Virus record (IMG/VR): IMGVR_UViG_3300023192_001143
Location: 1-22,610 of that record
Length of the DNA stretch: 22,610 nucleotides
Origin: a virus
Strand: one strand, 5' to 3'
A program made the translations under genes and the position numbers. Below the pieces are notes generated by a model, which had not been told where the DNA came from, made no database searches, and saw only the letters and a list, made by a program, of their open reading frames with translations. Below are positions 426-7,990 of the stretch, one piece after another. Every line of letters starts with the position of its first letter. Positions within the stretch are counted from its first letter, which is position 1.

Positions 426-1907
426 TTACGGGAAACTAGTTCCTGCAGCGACCGCACCACCATGAAGTCCATCTACTCTAAAGATTCTAAAGTATTGGTT
501 CTGGCGAATAGCAGTTGGACTACTCGGTTCAAAGTCACCAGCGTGGTTAGTCATTGAACCATCTTCATCAACAAACGGATTCATCACCATTCCGTAACGA
601 GTCTTAAACCCGATACGAGGTTGGAAGTCGTTTTCACCAACGGCGCGTACCATCTGTAGTGGTACATACGGACAGTAGAACAGTCCAGCATCATAAGGTG
701 AAGAACCACGATATCCTACACAACAGTAGTTAGTATCCGATGAATACGGGTCAATATAAACTTTCAACTTGCCGTTGAGTGTTCCGACAAAGGTGTTACC
801 AGTGTCATCGGGCTCAATGTCAGTTGATTTTGCGGGAGAGATTTGTAGGAAACCAGACATTGCAAGTGCAGAAGCGACATCTGAAGTACAGATAACAAAG
901 TTACCTTTACCTCTACGAGTATCTTTTGCGATTTTGTTGCATTCTCTTTCGAGTTGGAACATCAAACCACGGAATCGTTCAGCACTCCATCGTCCATCAG
1001 AGTCTCGGTCTAGGTCGTAAATACCACCGATACCCTGTGAAGGCGCTGCTGTTGTACCAGTTGCCCCAGAAGAACCAAGTCCAGTACCAGCACCACCCTT
1101 GTAATAAAGGTCAGTTTGCTGAGCACCAAGTTTAGCAATACGGTAGATAGTGCGGATAACTTCTCGGTTGATTTCAGCAAGAATTTCTGTGCTGAGAATG
1201 TTCGCGAGTTCAGTTTCTGCATCCAAACCATGTACTGCTTTCAAGTCTTGAGCGAGTTCAGTAGTGTATTCTGCTTTCAATGCACGGGTTTTAGCAACAA
1301 CGGATGTTCGTTCGATTGAGAACGCCATTTCACTGAACTGAGTACCATCTGAGGCACCAAGTGTTTCAGCATCGTTTGTTGACATACCACCACTTACACC
1401 AACACCAGTGTATGCCGCAGTACCTGTGTTTGCAGTAAATCCTGCAACTTGTGAACCAGTACCTAGAGGGTCACCAAGGTTGCCAGACATATCTGGGTTG
1501 ACATTAGTTGTTCCAGCGGCAGCATTAGTTGCAGCCTCATTGAACAGTGCTTCGTTACCTGTGTTACCGTGATATCGGGCTCGCATTGCAAAGATAAGTC
1601 CAGTAGGACCAGTCATTGGTTGCACACCACAAACATCGTATGCCATTAGATTGGGCATCGCTCGGCGAACGAGTGAGATGAGTACTGGGTCGAAACCTCT
1701 GACTGAACCTTCACCACCAATTACAGGGGACATACCGCCACCTACGAGGTTATTTGCTTGTTCTTGTAGAGCCTTTTCCTGATTCTCTAAAAGAATTGCT
1801 GTTACATTCTTTCTATAAGAATCTTTAATAGTGGGAAGACTTGGATGCTCAATAATGGGCCTCCATTTCTCCGCTAGAAATTGACTTGCTGTTTCGATGT
1901 TTTGCAT
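426..1907 (-). CDS. gp23: Major capsid protein gp23
   Basis: This is the T4-family major head protein, which forms the hexamers of the prolate or isometric head. The 493 residues match the usual family length. The N-terminus (about 1-66) resembles the gp23 delta-domain, which is removed by the prohead protease. The sequence VIGGE|GSVRG puts a candidate cut after Glu66, close to T4's Glu65. The conserved core includes RALKAEYTTELAQDL near residue 215, the segment around AETELANILSTEI, and GKGNFVICTSDVA. A Gly/Thr-rich stretch in the first third looks like a surface insertion. The Shine-Dalgarno AAGGAGA precedes ATG 1907. It follows scaffold and protease genes, as in other T4-like phages. No separate vertex protein gp24 is seen next to it. 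Confidence 0.97.
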   Translation of the reverse strand: MQNIETASQFLAEKWRPIIEHPSLPTIKDSYRKNVTAILLENQEKALQEQANNLVGGGMSPVIGGEGSVRGFDPVLISLVRRAMPNLMAYDVCGVQPMTGPTGLIFAMRARYHGNTGNEALFNEAATNAAAGTTNVNPDMSGNLGDPLGTGSQVAGFTANTGTAAYTGVGVSGGMSTNDAETLGASDGTQFSEMAFSIERTSVVAKTRALKAEYTTELAQDLKAVHGLDAETELANILSTEILAEINREVIRTIYRIAKLGAQQTDLYYKGGAGTGLGSSGATGTTAAPSQGIGGIYDLDRDSDGRWSAERFRGLMFQLERECNKIAKDTRRGKGNFVICTSDVASALAMSGFLQISPAKSTDIEPDDTGNTFVGTLNGKLKVYIDPYSSDTNYCCVGYRGSSPYDAGLFYCPYVPLQMVRAVGENDFQPRIGFKTRYGMVMNPFVDEDGSMTNHAGDFEPSSPTAIRQNQYFRIFRVDGLHGGAVAAGTSFP

Positions 1908-1949
1908 CAGTTTCTCTCCTTGATTTCCTTGTTATACCTTTTTAGGTTC

Positions 1950-1957
1950 TCTTTATA
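1950..1957 (-). promoter_or_regulatory. Possible late promoter for gp23
   Basis: The minus strand reads TATAAAGA, one mismatch from the T4 late consensus TATAAATA, 43 bases before the gp23 ATG in the 72-base gap after gp22. A capsid gene needs very high late expression, so a promoter here is expected. The match is imperfect and the region is AT-rich, so this remains tentative. Confidence 0.4.
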
Positions 1958-1979: not shown

Positions 1980-3092
1980 TTATGTTTGTGAATTATTTTC
2001 GTCTGCATCTGCAAGACGACCTACAGTATTAAAATATGAACTCATTCTATCGCTCATTCCTTCGGTTTCTTCATAAGAAGGAACATCTACAATTTCATTT
2101 AGTACCTGTTGTGGTGCTGTTGCATATGATCGGTCAAAATAACTTTCTTTGATTATTGCCAATTTATTAGCAAATTCTTGTTCATTTCCATATTCAACTC
2201 CGCGGGAAAGTGCTTTGAACTTTTCAATTTCAGTAGCAGCAAGACCGTGGCACATTGATTCAAAAATACCCTCACAATTAGACTGTACAGTTTCCTTTGA
2301 AAGTTGAACATTCTCATGCAAAGTTTGATTTAATTTTCCAGTAAGTTGTTCACATTTACCTGCAAGTTGATCTACTAGGTCTACTCTACTTTCTGGTACT
2401 TCAATGTAATGACTTTCAAAGAGGTTTCGAAGTCCTCCCATGAATGATTCGGAAATTTCGTTTTGAACACCACGGTCAATAGCAAGTTCGTTATTATCCA
2501 TCCATTCATTTACGACATAATTTAGATAGTCGTCTAGTTGGTTTGTTAATTGACTCTTGATACCAAGGACTTCTTCAACAACAACATCACGCGATTGTCG
2601 AACCAACTCTGATTGAATTTCTTCTACGCGGGAATTAACAGCCGCCTCAAAGATTGATGCGGCTTTTCTTTTGAATGAATCGGTTAAATTTTCACCACTA
2701 AACAGTGCTTCTAAATGTTCTACTGTTTTGCCTTTTTTCTTATCTTCAAGAGTCTTTTTCGCATTTCCAGTATTTACTGGATGAGCAAACTTAACTGATT
2801 TTCCATCAGCAGTATGTGAACCTTTACCTTCGCCATCTTCCTCATCTTCACCTTCTTTGCCAGTGACAATTTCCGCCTTCAACTTTTCACGATGAAGTGC
2901 TTCGTCTAATTCCACTTCATCATCGGCATAAGATACTCTATTTAGAGCATCACTGATATATTCAGATGTGAGTCCCATTGTGCCAAGAACACTTGCAAAC
3001 CAATTAATCTTTTCATTAATTCTGTTTTTAGTTTCTACGGTATCACTTCGTTCTAGAATACTTCTTGCAGTATTTATTGTGCTATTTGACAT
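1980..3092 (-). CDS. gp22: Prohead core scaffold protein gp22
   Basis: This is the main internal scaffold of the T4-like prohead; it assembles inside the gp23 shell and is later degraded by gp21. The 370-residue protein is highly charged and mostly helical. An acidic low-complexity stretch (GEDEEDGEGKG) lies near residue 85. The family-typical segment NYVVNEWMDNNELAIDRG, followed by GGLRNLFESHYIEVPE, lies in the middle. Possible gp21 cut sites (IKE|S, LNE|I) occur in the last quarter. GAAGGAG precedes ATG 3092. It lies between gp21 and gp23, as in T4. The roughly 70-base gap upstream shows no clear late-promoter octamer. Confidence 0.93.
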   Translation of the reverse strand: MSNSTINTARSILERSDTVETKNRINEKINWFASVLGTMGLTSEYISDALNRVSYADDEVELDEALHREKLKAEIVTGKEGEDEEDGEGKGSHTADGKSVKFAHPVNTGNAKKTLEDKKKGKTVEHLEALFSGENLTDSFKRKAASIFEAAVNSRVEEIQSELVRQSRDVVVEEVLGIKSQLTNQLDDYLNYVVNEWMDNNELAIDRGVQNEISESFMGGLRNLFESHYIEVPESRVDLVDQLAGKCEQLTGKLNQTLHENVQLSKETVQSNCEGIFESMCHGLAATEIEKFKALSRGVEYGNEQEFANKLAIIKESYFDRSYATAPQQVLNEIVDVPSYEETEGMSDRMSSYFNTVGRLADADENNSQT

Positions 3093-3163: not shown

Positions 3164-3808
3164 CTATAATTTGGACAAGAAATCAGCAAAACAATATTCT
3201 GCTACTTCATCAAGTGTCCGTGAATTGGATTTTGAGATGTTTTTCTTATAATAATTGATATGTTTTTCTACAACTAACCCATTATCCCAAACCCATTCTT
3301 TCCCTTCCATGATTCCGTCTACAAATGCTGATGAAGCGGATGGGTCTGCAACAATATCTATCGCCGCAAGCATGAAATCGTTACCGACATACTTTGCACC
3401 ATCCCTTTCTTCTAAACTACCCATTCCGCGAGAAGAAACGCCTAATTTTGCACCTTCTTCGAGTAATCCCTCTGCAATTTTGCCCATTGGAGTTTTTAAT
3501 ATTTTGGCTTTACCCTTGGCACTGTTGCCTTCCATTTTTAATTCTTTAATCATATGCGAAACTCTTTCTAAATTGACGGTTGGACCTTCTGGATGTCCTA
3601 ATTCCCCCATCGCACGATTTTCTTTCACAAGTTTATTATATTTCTTAACTTCTTTTTCCATAATATTAATAGGATAGATTCTACCGTTTCTATTCTTTTC
3701 TTCTGCTTGCATAAAAGTACCAACAATATAATAGTTAGTAGGCTTACCTTCACCACCATCTTCTTTTAATACTTCTACATCATGAGTTATTTCTGTTATT
3801 AGTTTCAT
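3164..3808 (-). CDS. gp21: Prohead core protease gp21
   Basis: This serine protease, of the T4 gp21 type with a herpesvirus-assemblin-like fold, cuts capsid and core proteins during head maturation, typically after Glu in an (L/I)xE context. The 214 residues match the family length. Visible motifs are GTFMQAEEKNRNGRIYP near the start, GELGHPEGP with the likely catalytic His72, and GVSSRGMGS with the likely catalytic Ser125/126. The His-Ser spacing is close to that of T4 gp21. The conserved DIVADPSA follows at about 151. The Shine-Dalgarno AAAGGAC precedes ATG 3808. The substrates encoded beside it are gp22, gp23 and probably the 483-aa core protein. Confidence 0.95.
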   Translation of the reverse strand: MKLITEITHDVEVLKEDGGEGKPTNYYIVGTFMQAEEKNRNGRIYPINIMEKEVKKYNKLVKENRAMGELGHPEGPTVNLERVSHMIKELKMEGNSAKGKAKILKTPMGKIAEGLLEEGAKLGVSSRGMGSLEERDGAKYVGNDFMLAAIDIVADPSASSAFVDGIMEGKEWVWDNGLVVEKHINYYKKNISKSNSRTLDEVAEYCFADFLSKL

Positions 3809-3817
3809 GTTTGTCCT

Positions 3818-4369
3818 TTAAAATCCGTAAAATTGTTCTCTTAGACATGAGTGATTTCTATTTTTATAGGATTCTACTTTTACATACATGGGTGTATGTA
3901 CTTTTGTACCGCCCCATCCTGCTGGAAAGTTGTTTGCTATCCATTCTCCAACACCACCGGCAGCGCCTTGTACTATATCTGTATTACCGATTGCATTTCC
4001 TGCCATATATCCCAATTCGCCGGCAGTATATGCGGCACCAACCACTCCTGCACGCCTCAATGCTGTTTTACCGGCGGCCCAACGGGCCGCTTTCCTCCTC
4101 GCCGCGTTGTGTCCAGCAATTTGTCTGGCTTCTTTCGCTACTCGTTTCGCTTGCATCGCGTCCCATTCCGCCACCGTTGGAATCGACGGCGGTTTCGGGT
4201 TTGCCACACGCCACCGCGCCGCATCTCGCGCCCTTACGGCAGCATCATATGCTCGTCTGTTATCCTGTTGGATGTTGTAGAGTTGAGTAAAATTCAGTTG
4301 CGGCGCGGATTCGCAAACATTTTGAGTCCATCGTTGTCTTTCTTCGTATAGGTTTGTATTGAATATCAT
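3818..4369 (-). CDS. Ala/Arg-rich 183-aa hypothetical protein, GC-rich insertion
   Basis: I do not recognise this protein. It begins directly after the previous stop codon (TAAATG junction), so it is co-translated with the head-core genes. The N-terminal half is basic and Ala/Arg-rich, apparently helical (residues about 40-110). A Gly/Ala-rich, mildly hydrophobic segment follows (about 108-150, e.g. GVVGAAYTAGELGYMAG), and a short basic tail with Cys ends the protein. My counts of 4081-4260 give about 57-63% GC, against about 37% for a line within gp21, so it looks horizontally acquired. Overlapping long frames on the other strand are a by-product of the high GC. It may be an internal head protein or an accessory protein; no function is claimed. 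Confidence 0.75.
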   Translation of the reverse strand: MIFNTNLYEERQRWTQNVCESAPQLNFTQLYNIQQDNRRAYDAAVRARDAARWRVANPKPPSIPTVAEWDAMQAKRVAKEARQIAGHNAARRKAARWAAGKTALRRAGVVGAAYTAGELGYMAGNAIGNTDIVQGAAGGVGEWIANNFPAGWGGTKVHTPMYVKVESYKNRNHSCLREQFYGF

Positions 4370-4732
4370 TTATGCTCCTTCGCCTCCGCCACCGGCACCG
4401 CCTTCTTGACCTGGCATTCCTGGCATTCCTGGCATACCAGGCATTCCGCCTTGTGGTGGTGCCGATGATTTTGCTAAAACTTTTCTTGCCATGTAAGTTA
4501 ATTCGGGAGTAAATTTCTCCCAAAGTCTGTCTAATATAACGGAATCGGCCCATCCTTCTATTTGCATATCTTGAATGAATCGGTCTATTTTAGGATACTT
4601 TCTAAACTCATCAAACAATAAATCCTCAAGTTTAGGTGGAGGTCCTGGTGGTGGCCCGCCCATTCCAGGCATTCCTGGCATTCCTGGCGGAGGTCCTTGT
4701 TCTATAATAAAATCTATTTGTCCTGTGTTCAT
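4370..4732 (-). CDS. Gly-Met-Pro repeat protein (120 aa) in the prohead-core cluster
   Basis: I do not recognise a named family. Two collagen-like low-complexity arms flank a folded middle. Residues about 13-33 read as Pro/Gly/Met repeats, and residues about 93-120 contain (GMP)n followed by a Gly/Glu tail. The centre (about 35-88, DEFRKYPKIDRFIQDM...) looks helical and globular. At the DNA level the arms are tandem near-identical 9-bp units at about 4408-4448 and 4660-4690, which could expand or contract. The start overlaps the upstream stop by four bases (ATGA), and the next gene begins immediately after its stop. Its place between gp20 and gp21 suggests a small prohead-core or internal head protein, by analogy with gp67/gp68. 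Confidence 0.8.
   Translation of the reverse strand: MNTGQIDFIIEQGPPPGMPGMPGMGGPPPGPPPKLEDLLFDEFRKYPKIDRFIQDMQIEGWADSVILDRLWEKFTPELTYMARKVLAKSSAPPQGGMPGMPGMPGMPGQEGGAGGGGEGA
4408..4448. repeat. Tandem 9-bp repeats encoding Gly-Met-Pro (copy cluster 1)
   Basis: About four consecutive near-identical 9-base units (ggcattcct on the plus strand) encode the C-terminal GMP repeats of the 120-aa protein. A second, shorter cluster of the same unit lies at about 4660-4690 in the same gene. Such arrays are prone to slippage. Confidence 0.8.
4660..4690. repeat. Tandem 9-bp repeats encoding Gly-Met-Pro (copy cluster 2)
   Basis: About three units of the same 9-base motif as cluster 1 encode the N-terminal PGM repeats of the 120-aa protein. 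The two clusters are in the same orientation about 220 bases apart, so they could recombine or exchange sequence. Confidence 0.75.
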
Positions 4733-5025
4733 CTATAGTATCGTTCTTTCATTGCCTTACTGATTTTCTTTCTACGATTTCTTAGATATTCATCTGATTC
4801 ATCAGAATCACCATCGTTATCAATATCAGCATCACCTTTTCCTACAGGGTCAAGGGTATCACCAGAATCATCTTCTGAATCATTGTCTTTGTCTGTTACT
4901 TTGGCAACCTTTTTCTTTTCTTCTAAAGCGTATCCTATCTTATTGAGTAGCAACGATTCAATTCTATCATTTGCTTCATAAAGATTGCCAATTATAATGT
5001 CTTTAAATAATTTTCTACTACTCAT
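4729..5025 (-). CDS. Small acidic/basic prohead-core-type protein with EF-hand-like loop
   Basis: A 98-residue protein located where T4-like phages encode small prohead core proteins (gp67/gp68 region). Residues 1-35 are helical. Residues 45-79 are very acidic and contain DADIDNDGDSDESD. This fits a 12-residue EF-hand calcium loop, with Asp at positions 67, 69, 71, 73, 75 and 78 and Gly72. The tail is basic (YLRNRRKKISKAMKE). AAAAGGAAAT precedes ATG 5025, and the stop overlaps the next start (ATGA). The charge pattern suits an internal head or scaffold component. Function is inferred from position and composition, not from a recognised catalytic motif. Confidence 0.8.
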   Translation of the reverse strand: MSSRKLFKDIIIGNLYEANDRIESLLLNKIGYALEEKKKVAKVTDKDNDSEDDSGDTLDPVGKGDADIDNDGDSDESDEYLRNRRKKISKAMKERYYR

Positions 5026-5027
5026 TT

Positions 5028-6479
5028 TTATTTCCTTTTCTTTGCAAAATTACTAATTTCTACAAATGATTTTATGTTCTCGTTGATAAGTTCTCTAAGT
5101 CTAATCTGATTATCTGCATTTAATTCATCATGTAATAATACAATTTCTTCACATATATCTGGAGTAACATGAATGATTTTTCCATCAATATCTATGTCAA
5201 CGGGCATTTTGGATGTATATGCTTCTTGTATTTTAGAAATTACTGATTCGTTTAGTTTCTTACCACGACTTTTCTTTAAATACTTTGCAAGTCCACCCTT
5301 ACCGACTGATTTGTTACCAGGCAACATTTGAACTTGTACTTTTGTTGTGTCAACCAATTCTGTTGTGGCGATGCCACTATTACTCATATCCTTTGCAAAC
5401 TGACTCGCTAGTCTATTGTTAGGGAATTCATATACTAATCCAGTAGTACCTGTTTTGTTTCGTTCATACAGATAGGATTCCTTTGTGTTACGCAATTGCG
5501 CCAACTGCTTGTTAGCCAACATTGTGCCAATAAGTTTGTTGTTCTTTGCAAATTTCATTGCCCCTGCAAGATTGACATGAGTACCATGATAAGAGAACAT
5601 CTTGATGCGACCACCCTTTGGGTCACTGATGGTTGCCATTAATACTTTGTCTTGGTTCGATGACACTTTACCCTTGTGTCCTAAAGGTCTTTCAACTACG
5701 ACAAACCGAGCATTCTTATGGATAGAAGATACTCCAGTATACAGAATCTTTGCTTTGCCACTTTGGATAAGGTCTTTGGTTTTCTTATCCGCAGGAATAT
5801 CAGTTTTGTTTCGTTCTTCATACAGATAGGATTCTCTCTTCAATGAGGGTTTTACATTCCCACGCATAAGAACTTCAATTGTATGGACATCTACTTTCAT
5901 AATCTTAGCAATTTGTTTGGCACTCTTTTTTTGCTTGATAAGCATATGAAGTTCTGACATCTTGCTTTCTTTTAATCCAGCACATTTTTTACATCCACAC
6001 CCGCCTTCATCGAATCCTTCTTGTTCTTCTTCCCATTCTTCATGAGATGTATCGGGATGGACTTCATCGCAACTTCCTTTATGGGATGCTTTATTATTTT
6101 CATTAATCGCAACAGATTCTGCCATAAAGGTTGTATATTTAATATTTAAATCTTTCTTATATGTTTTCTCTACATATGTTTTAATTTTTTGTAAATCATT
6201 CTTTGGACCGTGAAAACTTAAATCAAATCCTCTGCCCATTGACCCAGAGCCAGAAAAATACTTCTTAAATCTTTTCTTTAAGTCTTCTTCTACTTTCTTT
6301 TTATCTCCTGATTTAAAATCAAAGACAAGAATCCAATCAGATGCTTCTAATAAATTAACAGAAATTTCCGATTTCCGAGCCGATAAAGAATTAACAATCT
6401 TTTCTGCTAATATTTGATGAACATTAGTTCTAAAATTGTCAACATTTTCAGTTATAAGAGATTTAATAAAATTACTCAT
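5028..6479 (-). CDS. Modular prohead core protein with gp67/68-like N-terminus (483 aa)
   Basis: Lies directly after the portal gene, where T4-like phages encode core proteins gp67 and gp68 (80 and 141 aa in T4), but is far longer. Residues 1-45 look like the core-protein N-terminus (HQILAEKIVNSL...VNLLE). A compact alpha/beta module follows (46-121), then an acidic Cys/His segment (122-171; CGCKKC at 161-166). Next is a helix-turn-helix-like module (172-216, MSELHMLIKQKKSAKQIAKI), an unknown alpha/beta module (217-334), a second (335-411), and a helical C-terminus. The boundaries coincide with Glu|Ser or Glu|Ala steps at 45, 121, 171, 216, 334 and 411. Several of these are LxE, the gp21 cleavage style. 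The peptide SYLYE(E)RNKT occurs twice. The start overlaps the portal stop (TAATG). Core-protein role is likely; module functions are unknown. Confidence 0.85.
   Translation of the reverse strand: MSNFIKSLITENVDNFRTNVHQILAEKIVNSLSARKSEISVNLLEASDWILVFDFKSGDKKKVEEDLKKRFKKYFSGSGSMGRGFDLSFHGPKNDLQKIKTYVEKTYKKDLNIKYTTFMAESVAINENNKASHKGSCDEVHPDTSHEEWEEEQEGFDEGGCGCKKCAGLKESKMSELHMLIKQKKSAKQIAKIMKVDVHTIEVLMRGNVKPSLKRESYLYEERNKTDIPADKKTKDLIQSGKAKILYTGVSSIHKNARFVVVERPLGHKGKVSSNQDKVLMATISDPKGGRIKMFSYHGTHVNLAGAMKFAKNNKLIGTMLANKQLAQLRNTKESYLYERNKTGTTGLVYEFPNNRLASQFAKDMSNSGIATTELVDTTKVQVQMLPGNKSVGKGGLAKYLKKSRGKKLNESVISKIQEAYTSKMPVDIDIDGKIIHVTPDICEEIVLLHDELNADNQIRLRELINENIKSFVEISNFAKKRK
5452..5480. repeat. 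Direct repeat within the core protein gene, copy A
   Basis: This 29-base stretch recurs at 5803-5834, differing only by a 3-base insertion (TTC). It encodes SYLYERNKT. The spacing between copies (354 bases, 118 codons) keeps frame, so the copies flank a complete coding module. Confidence 0.85.
5803..5834. repeat. Direct repeat within the core protein gene, copy B
   Basis: Second copy of the repeat at 5452-5480, with one extra TTC that adds a Glu to give SYLYEERNKT. Recombination between copies would remove the 118-codon module cleanly in frame. Confidence 0.85.
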
Positions 6480-7990
6480 TAGAAGTCCTCATCATCTTCG
6501 CCATGCAAACCTTTTGCCTTTTCATCTTTCATTTCTTTATCCATGTCAGAAATTTCATCTTCGGTTTGCTTTAGAATGTTTTTCCTGACCCATTCTATAG
6601 AGTAGTACCTACCTATGTATTCATTTACCTCTCTCAAGACTTCCATTCTTTCCTTTAAAATTTCTGATTCTTTAAGTTCTGTGAAATATGAATCTTTTGC
6701 ATATTCACAATATACATTTTGAGAGATTTCTTTCCAATCATCAGGAGTAATAATGTTTTTCATTAGAAGTTGTGTCTTGAGCAACTCCATGAACATATCA
6801 CTGAATTTCTTTCGTAGTCTTTCAATAAACTTAAAGAATTTAAGTTCATCTCTTGTAATTTCTGCACTTCTACCCATATTGAATCCATTATCAGCATCCA
6901 ATCTAGAGGTAGGAACATGTAATGCACGATAAAGTTTCTTTTGGAAATACAGGACATCTTCCATTTCTCCAAGATTTTGTCCACCATCGAGAGTAGTAAT
7001 TTCAGTTCCTCTACCACCTTCTCGTCTTGGTAGCCAATAATCTTCAAGCATTGACATGTGGCGTTTATCGTCTTTAATTTCACCTGTTTGAGCATCATAA
7101 ACAAGTTTATTACGATATCGATTCATAATATCTTTAAGATATTGTTCTGCTTTATTTTTTGGTAAGTTACCAACATCAATATAAAAGATTCTTCGTTCTG
7201 GCGCTCTAGCGATACGATAAATCACAACTGCATCTTCAATCATTCGTAATTGATTTAGTGGTTTGATTGCTTTATGTAAGTGACCGATTACTCTTTTTTT
7301 TGCACCATCAAACAGACCAGAGTTTACATAACAGATAGCATCTGGAGATACTTTTACTCCCTTTTGGTCCCAACCACCGTATGAATATCCTGAACCTGTG
7401 ATTGGAGTCTGGTCATACATGTAAAATTCTCTTATTTCTTTAATAACCTCTATGCCATCTTTATTTCTTTCTTTTACTACTTCACGAATTTTTCGAATCT
7501 TCGTGGGGTCGATTGGTCTAATTTCTGTTATTCCTTTTCCACCATTTTCTTGGTCAGTTATGATGTGAAAATATAATCGACCATCAATAAACCATTTCCT
7601 GAAAAGGTCGTATGCTTTGTTATTGAAATTTAATAAAGAAAGCACATTATCAAATTCTTCATATATTTTATTTTTAACGGTATCTGATTGTTTATAGTGG
7701 TCCATAACCAGTTTAACTGGAACTCTGTACTCATCAAAAACAATTGCATCGTTACAGATATCTTCAACCGCTTGTTCAACTTCTGGTTGAAGTACCATAG
7801 TTCGGTAATGGTTAATAAACCCTACCTCACTTTTAATATCACCTTCTAAGTCAAGATATGACCCATAAAAACCCCCTGCTGTAACAACGGTTGCGCCATC
7901 GTCATAGTCAGGGGACACGAAGGATTTTGATTTAGTTGGTTTTTCAGGGGTTTTAGATTTCCCGAATTTAAATCCAAACAGTTCTGGCAT
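6479..7990 (-). CDS. gp20: Portal vertex protein gp20
   Basis: This is the dodecameric portal of the T4-like head, through which terminase pumps DNA and to which the neck attaches. The 503 residues compare with 524 in T4. Family-typical stretches include VGFINHYRTMVLQPEVEQAVEDICNDAI cut into shorter conserved blocks near residues 57-85. Also visible are RIARAPERRIFYIDVGNLP near 265, and the region around TLDGGQNLGEMEDVLYF and VPTSRLD near 335-365. The highly charged C-terminus (DEDF) overlaps the next start by one base (TAATG). GAGGAC precedes ATG 7990. It lies between tail tube gp19 and the core proteins, as in T4. Confidence 0.96.
   Translation of the reverse strand: MPELFGFKFGKSKTPEKPTKSKSFVSPDYDDGATVVTAGGFYGSYLDLEGDIKSEVGFINHYRTMVLQPEVEQAVEDICNDAIVFDEYRVPVKLVMDHYKQSDTVKNKIYEEFDNVLSLLNFNNKAYDLFRKWFIDGRLYFHIITDQENGGKGITEIRPIDPTKIRKIREVVKERNKDGIEVIKEIREFYMYDQTPITGSGYSYGGWDQKGVKVSPDAICYVNSGLFDGAKKRVIGHLHKAIKPLNQLRMIEDAVVIYRIARAPERRIFYIDVGNLPKNKAEQYLKDIMNRYRNKLVYDAQTGEIKDDKRHMSMLEDYWLPRREGGRGTEITTLDGGQNLGEMEDVLYFQKKLYRALHVPTSRLDADNGFNMGRSAEITRDELKFFKFIERLRKKFSDMFMELLKTQLLMKNIITPDDWKEISQNVYCEYAKDSYFTELKESEILKERMEVLREVNEYIGRYYSIEWVRKNILKQTEDEISDMDKEMKDEKAKGLHGEDDEDF

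Follow-up and report, generated by a model that had tools for sequence, protein, structure and literature searches.

In T4, the internal proteins IPI, IPII and IPIII, together with Alt, are small proteins of the prohead core that lie behind a peptide removed by the prohead protease gp21 after L/I-x-E; each is encoded by a separate gene and receives a single N-terminal cut. Among the T4 internal proteins are factors for anti-restriction and for takeover of the host; T4 gp21 also cleaves itself. The cleavage of T4 proteins by gp21 after L/I-x-E has been described (PMC9026906). For the T4 core protein gp67, present in approximately 340 copies per core, breakdown into small peptides has been reported, and these presumably escape from the prohead (PMC9958956). 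In giant phages (SPN3US gp245, phiKZ gp175) a protease related to gp21 processes head and ejection proteins after x-x-E and cuts the propeptides several times (PMC10052503); a single mature protein is retained and the propeptide is lost, and no description of cassette exchange in giant phage head proteins was found in the open-access literature. The polyvalent proteins of phages and conjugative elements (PMC5512222) are multidomain, with exchangeable domains, and are predicted to be packaged and injected; their domains are recognizable and often enzymatic, and some carry a peptidase of their own.

The protein analysed here, of 483 residues, is encoded in a 22,610-base fragment of a T4-like bacterial virus that derives from a single IMG/VR record (the window). 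Its closest known counterparts are T4 gp67, the T4 internal proteins and the polyvalent proteins, the conservation of its linkers at the DNA level being unusual, and no earlier description of such head-cargo polyproteins was found in the open-access literature. The likeness to the T4 internal proteins and Alt extends to sister polyproteins with CTS-like starts, whereas many proteins are here joined in one chain with linkers. Unlike in polyvalent proteins, the modules are of 50-110 residues and the linkers are of the prohead-protease type; with regard to the disparate activities of that class, no Pfam, NCBIfam or PADLOC domain was found above cutoff, and only a weak HTH match was obtained. We consider it probable that the 483-residue protein is an enlarged relative of gp67 that serves as a cassette polyprotein, its modules being set apart by gp21 to give individual items of head cargo.

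Gene position and relation to gp67

The polyprotein ORF (5028..6479, minus strand; ORF call and homologues) stands in a series transcribed in the order terminase, sheath, tube, gp20, polyprotein gene, ORFs of 98, 120 and 183 residues, gp21, gp22 and gp23. The portal gp20 (6479..7990; PF07230), the S77 prohead protease gp21, which is the presumed cutter (3164..3808; PF03420, E 2.9e-32; phrog_207), the scaffold gp22 (1980..3092; PF25623) and the major capsid protein gp23 (426..1907; PF07068) are all encoded on the minus strand. The gene occupies the place held in T4 by gp67 and gp68, between gp20 and gp21, which confirms the statement of the earlier note that the ORF lies where small prohead core proteins are expected. 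Its start overlaps the gp20 stop by one base, and the same overlap is found for gp20 and gp67 in T4. A Pfam search with the protein gave nothing above threshold, comparison with PHROG, NCBIfam and PADLOC yielded no convincing match, and no defence-related domains were detected by PADLOC.

A second small core-type protein of 98 residues is encoded next to it (4729..5025, minus strand), with NLYE|A at residue 17 (the bar marks a putative cut) and a DNDGDSDESD module. This neighbouring gene gains modules in L031 (5222-5623) and in L146, where FKPHMMYDPKSGKGYK.. or an ESVELDE seam is seen, so that the entry of cassettes is not confined to a single core gene. The 183-residue ORF (3818-4369) and the 120-residue ORF (4370-4732), adjoining gp21, have early [LI]xE sites (MIFNTNLYE|ER and MNTGQIDFIIE|QG) and are candidates for additional packaged proteins of the core or internal type; the C-terminus of the former (VESYKNRNHSCLREQFYGF) recurs in a 225-residue ORF of L002.

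In hhalign, a profile of the N-terminus aligned with T4 gp67 (phrog_1064) over 45 columns, the last of them at FLIE|G of the T4 protein (E 3.5e-4, probability 37.5). Weak N-terminal matches to phrog_1064 were also given by L007 (E 0.0036) and L066 (E 0.02), and none by the 483-residue protein itself. The alignment with gp67 and gp68 suggested previously thus gave a weak gp67 similarity of the N-terminus, whereas a search for T4 gp68 homology in the C-terminal module found none. Like T4 gp67, the protein is encoded between gp20 and gp21 with the one-base gp20 overlap, begins with a weakly similar stretch of approximately 45 residues ending in LIE| or LLE|, and contains [LI]xE sites. However, T4 gp67 has 80 residues and an acidic C-terminal tail; here the proteins are of 272-658 residues, the tail is absent and exchangeable folded modules stand in its place, followed by a constant C-terminal domain. 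In combination, these features are suggestive, but not proof, of membership in the gp67 family.

The position and the N-terminus would also suit a scaffold filler, the modules providing core bulk and the linkers being cut to break the core up, with fragments that exit before DNA packaging in the manner of T4 gp22, gp67 and gp68. The constant N- and C-terminal ends would be enough for such a core role, and T4 gp67 and gp68 are reported to be degraded with loss of the peptides (PMC9958956; PMC9026906). Yet the modules are conserved domains that are folded in the AlphaFold model and hold few cut motifs, whereas T4 gp22 has [LI]xE throughout; the same modules are found in non-core polyproteins with CTS-like starts, and bulk has no need for a large exchanged repertoire. 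We therefore regard this role as unlikely.

Modules and junctions of the 483-residue protein

The putative cargo polyprotein, all parts of which are encoded on the minus strand, begins with a gp67-like core module (residues 1-45, 6345..6479; profile against T4 gp67) that ends in LLE|A. It is followed by a ferredoxin-like or PII-like alpha-beta module (46-121, 6117..6344; AlphaFold pLDDT mostly 83-93), also present in L002, L013, L039 and L042, and by a disordered acidic and Cys-rich segment (122-171, 5967..6116; HEEWEEEQ..GGCGCKKCAGLKE; pLDDT <50 for 120-169), the acidic part of which is common to L002. A small module, three-helix and HTH-like in the AlphaFold model (172-216, 5832..5966), gave a weak HTH_38 match (E 0.09, below cutoff) and is also present in L004 and L050. 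The first linker or seam copy, GAATCCTATCTGTATGAA (ESYLYE; 216-221, 5817..5834), is perfect and lies in low-pLDDT sequence (207-229). Next come the module 222-334 (5478..5816; DIPADKK..ISDP..GRIKMFSYHGTH; delimited by homologues), whose family is found in many relatives and in 20 of the 20 loci from a scan with that module, and the second ESYLYE (334-339, 5463..5480; low pLDDT at 332-346). The module 340-411 (5247..5462; YEFPNNRLASQFAKDMSNSGIATT..; AlphaFold domain 347-409) recurs in L002, L003, L004, L005, L006, L013, L016 and L017. The chain is closed by the constant C-terminal module (412-483, 5031..5246; KMPVDIDIDG..HVTPD..LHDELN; 12-row alignment), at the start of which SVISKIQE (412-419, 5223..5246), between LNE|S and IQE|A, is a candidate excised octapeptide; this region is a predicted helix (413-423) in the AlphaFold model, not disordered.

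The model as a whole (mean pLDDT 64.8, pTM 0.27) divides into domains at 47-119, 170-206, 232-331, 347-409 and 412-482, and its longest stretches with pLDDT <50 are 24-46, 120-169, 207-229 and 332-346. Burial of the Glu-Ser steps inside folds, which would have told against the polyprotein, is not seen for most sites, since junctions 45, 121/127, 216/221 and 334/339 fall in these low-confidence linkers between folded domains. Junction 171 coincides with a helix start, whereas 411 (a short turn) and 419 (within a helix) lie in ordered, partly helical sequence. The structure of residues 43-126 gave a best Z of 8.9 to PII-like SbtB and de novo ferredoxin folds, with many chains at Z about 8-9, and Foldseek against the PDB returned no match below E 0.001. 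A function deduced from this fold was rejected, because the ferredoxin-like/PII-like arrangement is common and implies none; viral structure matches, being low-scoring uncharacterized proteins, were set aside. A second AlphaFold model, of the L020 protein, was of low confidence (mean pLDDT 52).

The six E|S or E|A steps reported in the earlier note (45, 121, 171, 216, 334 and 411) are all present, with a seventh at 419. Their repetition is nevertheless at chance level, with seven E[SA] against 4.7-4.8 expected by composition (P about 0.2), and counting them was dropped as evidence. Conversely, the T4 gp21 motif [LI]xE occurs 12 times in the protein against 5.2 expected (P = 0.002); it is raised in only three of the 18 other window ORFs, gp21 (P<0.001), gp15 (P=0.03) and gp22 (P=0.053). 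The count in gp21 (3164-3808) is 10 against 3.3 expected, which fits multi-site self-cleavage; the specificity of gp21 of this phage is assumed from T4. Of the six steps, those at 45, 171 and 411 fit [LI]xE and those at 121 (MAE), 216 (KRE) and 334 (TKE) do not, and the E|S or E|A sites that are themselves [LI]xE are 45, 171, 411 and 419 only. Each non-fitting step is followed after 5-6 residues by an [LI]xE (127 INE, 221 LYE, 339 LYE). From sequence, the junction appears to be better described as E|S-x(1-4)-L-x-E|, and three of the six proposed cut sites seem better placed 5-6 residues downstream. The gp21-type sites are thus above chance and situated in exposed linkers, with the exception of 411 and 419 in ordered sequence. 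Further [LI]xE sites occur within the constant C-terminal domain (444, 463 and 467), which would consequently be cut up or protected.

The three E|S sites off [LI]xE would agree with a multidomain protein that enters the head whole and stays uncut, in the manner of the polyvalent proteins (Iyer et al. 2017), the linkers being plain flexible tethers; phage-injected multidomain proteins are known, and some are uncut (PMC5512222). However, the linkers keep L and E, which a tether would not need, while the middle residue varies (D, N, Y, E, G) in accordance with T4 gp21 specificity, and the gene adjoins gp21. A protein that stays in one piece is, on this evidence, distinctly improbable.

Relatives, cassette exchange and linker DNA

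None of the isolated phages carries the 483-residue protein, and only single modules recur among them, in Melnitz and cyanophages. Melnitz EXVC044M (L009) also encodes multi-module proteins, of 650, 462 and 251 residues. Homologues are carried by IMG/VR contigs, and 12 full-length members, including that of the window, are 274-658 residues long; in L002, L007 and L031, for which the flanks were read, the polyprotein gene lies directly after gp20. Both ends are common to the relatives, namely a start of approximately 45 residues ending in LLE, LME or VTE and an end of approximately 70 residues (KMPVDIDIDG..HVTPD..LHDELNE). The middle modules vary, recurring in differing numbers and neighbourhoods, and each is terminated by a linker (ESYLYE or ESVELDE, for example). 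The architecture is settled by these relatives, with their shared ends and differing middles. Comparison of L020 with L031 reveals the exact insertion of one cassette and one linker: L031 reads ..NRINE|SVELDE|ATLKFD.., and L020 reads ..NNIKE|SVELEE|(extra module)..YNE|SVELDE|ATLKFD... Similarly, in L029 and L030 another module replaces the ATLKFD.. module of L031, again between SFELDE| and E|SNL, in an exact swap.

Across 17 proteins [LI]xE was found 152 times (59.2 ± 7.0 expected) and ES.{1,3}L.E 34 times (0.5 expected), whereas the controls [LI].K (116 vs 112) and [LI].D (63 vs 57) were at chance; in several CTS-type relatives [LI]xE is not individually enriched. Homology blocks extended across [LI]xE junctions less frequently than across rotated control junctions (0.670 against 0.806 ± 0.028; 0 of 3000). 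Neither [LI].K nor [LI].D showed such a deficit, and that for [VAFM].E was weaker (P = 0.017). This test was used instead of BLAST HSP ends as breakpoints, which were noisy though above the null (0.388 vs 0.264 within 6 residues), and structure alignments with many fragments (A5, A7), misaligned by MAFFT, were left out. From 72 nonredundant proteins or fragments, 255 segments were obtained in 116 segment families, the largest of which may be merged owing to the single-linkage clustering; 35 families occur in at least two proteins, and 32 of these recurrent families adjoin at least two different neighbours on a side. Modular architecture with cassette exchange at the linkers is well supported by these comparisons. 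The notion of a polyprotein of different modules therefore stands as regards architecture (gain, loss and swap between linkers, [LI]xE enrichment, gp67-like head, low-pLDDT linkers), albeit with three cut sites shifted.

The linkers are conserved also as DNA, and consequently look like recombination seams too. Among 56 linkers Ser is encoded by TCC in 49 (88%) and Leu by CTG in 48 (86%), against 71/694 (10%) and 32/627 (5%), respectively, elsewhere in the same genes, the consensus being GAATCC(TAT or GTTGAA or TTTGAA)CTG-N-ATGAA. The codon test is not circular, as the linker set was fetched by module similarity and not by linker DNA. Exactly two perfect GAATCCTATCTGTATGAA copies occur in the window (residues 216-221 and 334-339), where 0.03 are expected. 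Codon differences at identical residues amount to 0.154 in linkers and 0.290 in the orthologous module, linkers being lower in 65 of the 75 gene pairs, and low-divergence linkers stand beside unrelated modules. Shared recent ancestry of the cassettes may explain part of this conservation, because the protein sequences of the cassettes retain an average identity of 71% for the module tested. A seam scan of viral contigs gave 95 stretches, a few of which are chance; 80 of the 82 examined reading frames were in frame in ORFs of at least 100 residues, and a single ORF or stretch holds as many as 5-6 copies. A search of 84,980 cellular genomes for the seam gave 16 stretches, within a few-fold of estimated chance, and no spaced arrays. 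Matches in L086, L104, L078, L101 and L117 (start MAxYKGEDIDL) were dropped as chance; they resemble unrelated capsid/protease fusion proteins.

Linkers serving purely as DNA recombination seams, with [LI]xE incidental to the seam sequence, would account for the strong codon preference (TCC 0.88 vs 0.10, CTG 0.86 vs 0.05) and the low divergence relative to module codons, but this is very improbable, since [LI]xE also marks junctions that have no DNA seam (45, 127, 171, 411 and 419 in the window; ESNLHAIAE|S in L031) and gp21 is [LI]xE-enriched as well.

A second class of polyproteins and the proposed cassette platform

The presumed cargo polyprotein of the window has no N-terminal peptide of approximately 10 residues ending in [LI]xE, the gp67-like start of approximately 45 residues standing instead. 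The scan with module 222-334 led to polyproteins at other loci, of up to 815 residues, and several of these sister proteins (L039, L042, L113, L133, L142) have CTS-like starts, such as MKTFNKIKEQILIE|S, MKTFKELRLITE|E, MQPKQFRNLME|S and MKSFKTFINE|A. One record of 134,816 bases holds both an 815-residue CTS-type protein and, between its gp20 and gp21, a 275-residue gp67-headed protein. The last module of the 815-residue protein resembles the constant C-terminal domain, and the C-terminal profile matches the last module of L042.

Starts like those of the T4 CTS were also observed in genes of isolated marine T4-like phages (Melnitz, S-SSM4, S-B43), many of them annotated hypothetical: MQGFKTFLSE|A, MLTLINFSKYITE|D, MKKFSEIIE|A, MKKFSDFLTE|A and MKSFQDFLQE|S. 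Genes with CTS-like starts are located at 4470-5555, 5539-6795 and 7181-9133 in L009, 2304-3473 in L033 and 3785-4102 in L032. The marine genes include nucleotidyltransferase- and ligase-like (KWDGAP) proteins, which may be packaged. A protein of S-SSM4 annotated as cytidylyltransferase starts with MKKFSDFLTE|A, as expected of a CTS, and a putative cytidylyltransferase has been found in virions of cyanophage S-SM1 (PMC3037559). In a 1786-residue open frame of L088 (minus strand) a nucleotidyltransferase-like domain comes first and many modules follow, which suggests a cytidylyltransferase as the first cargo of a polyprotein; L106 and L143 have smaller versions. Near the second-locus polyprotein of L004 lies a 271-residue trypsin-like serine protease with a lipoprotein-like signal (1136-1951, minus strand; TAAHC, GDSGGG), and the surroundings contain many small Gly/Pro-rich ORFs with early LxE sites.

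According to the proposed mechanism, the protein would be tied into the prohead core by its first 45 or so residues, and a chain of small folded modules with the constant C-terminal domain would stand where gp67 has its acidic tail. Activated gp21 would cut after the Glu of [LI]xE in exposed linkers, with predicted cuts at LLE|A 45, INE|N 127, LKE|S 171, LYE|E 221, LYE|R 339, LNE|S 411 and perhaps IQE|A 419, and would thereby free 4-6 small proteins inside the head together with short spacer peptides such as SYLYE. The freed modules would probably stay among the DNA and be delivered at infection like T4 internal proteins; at the gp67 copy number of the T4 core, each would be packed in hundreds. 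Given the reported breakdown of T4 gp67 and the presumed loss of its peptides, this delivery is an inference. The cutting by gp21, the retention in the head and the mechanism of recombination are inferred as well. Since the linkers are nearly identical as DNA, recombination could add, remove or exchange cassettes, each of which would remain in frame and between cut sites.

A wider and more tentative proposal, which we judge nearly as apt to hold as to fail, is that marine-type T4-like phages possess a cassette platform in which one short linker acts as protease site in the protein and as recombination seam in the DNA. Any small domain placed between seams would then be read in the correct frame, directed into the head, released by cleavage and carried into the next host cell. 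The platform would comprise two classes, gp67-headed by gp20 and CTS-headed elsewhere, with at least one genome record holding both. If cargo is loaded as swappable cassettes, the 116 segment families (35 recurrent) would constitute a catalogue of candidate injected proteins from uncultured viruses, and the signature GAATCC..CTG.ATGAA could be used for finding more such genes. The gain of cargo with targeting, reading frame and processing all preserved would be explained by a very short sequence, and prohead proteolysis would be linked to the evolution of cargo in a way open to direct test.
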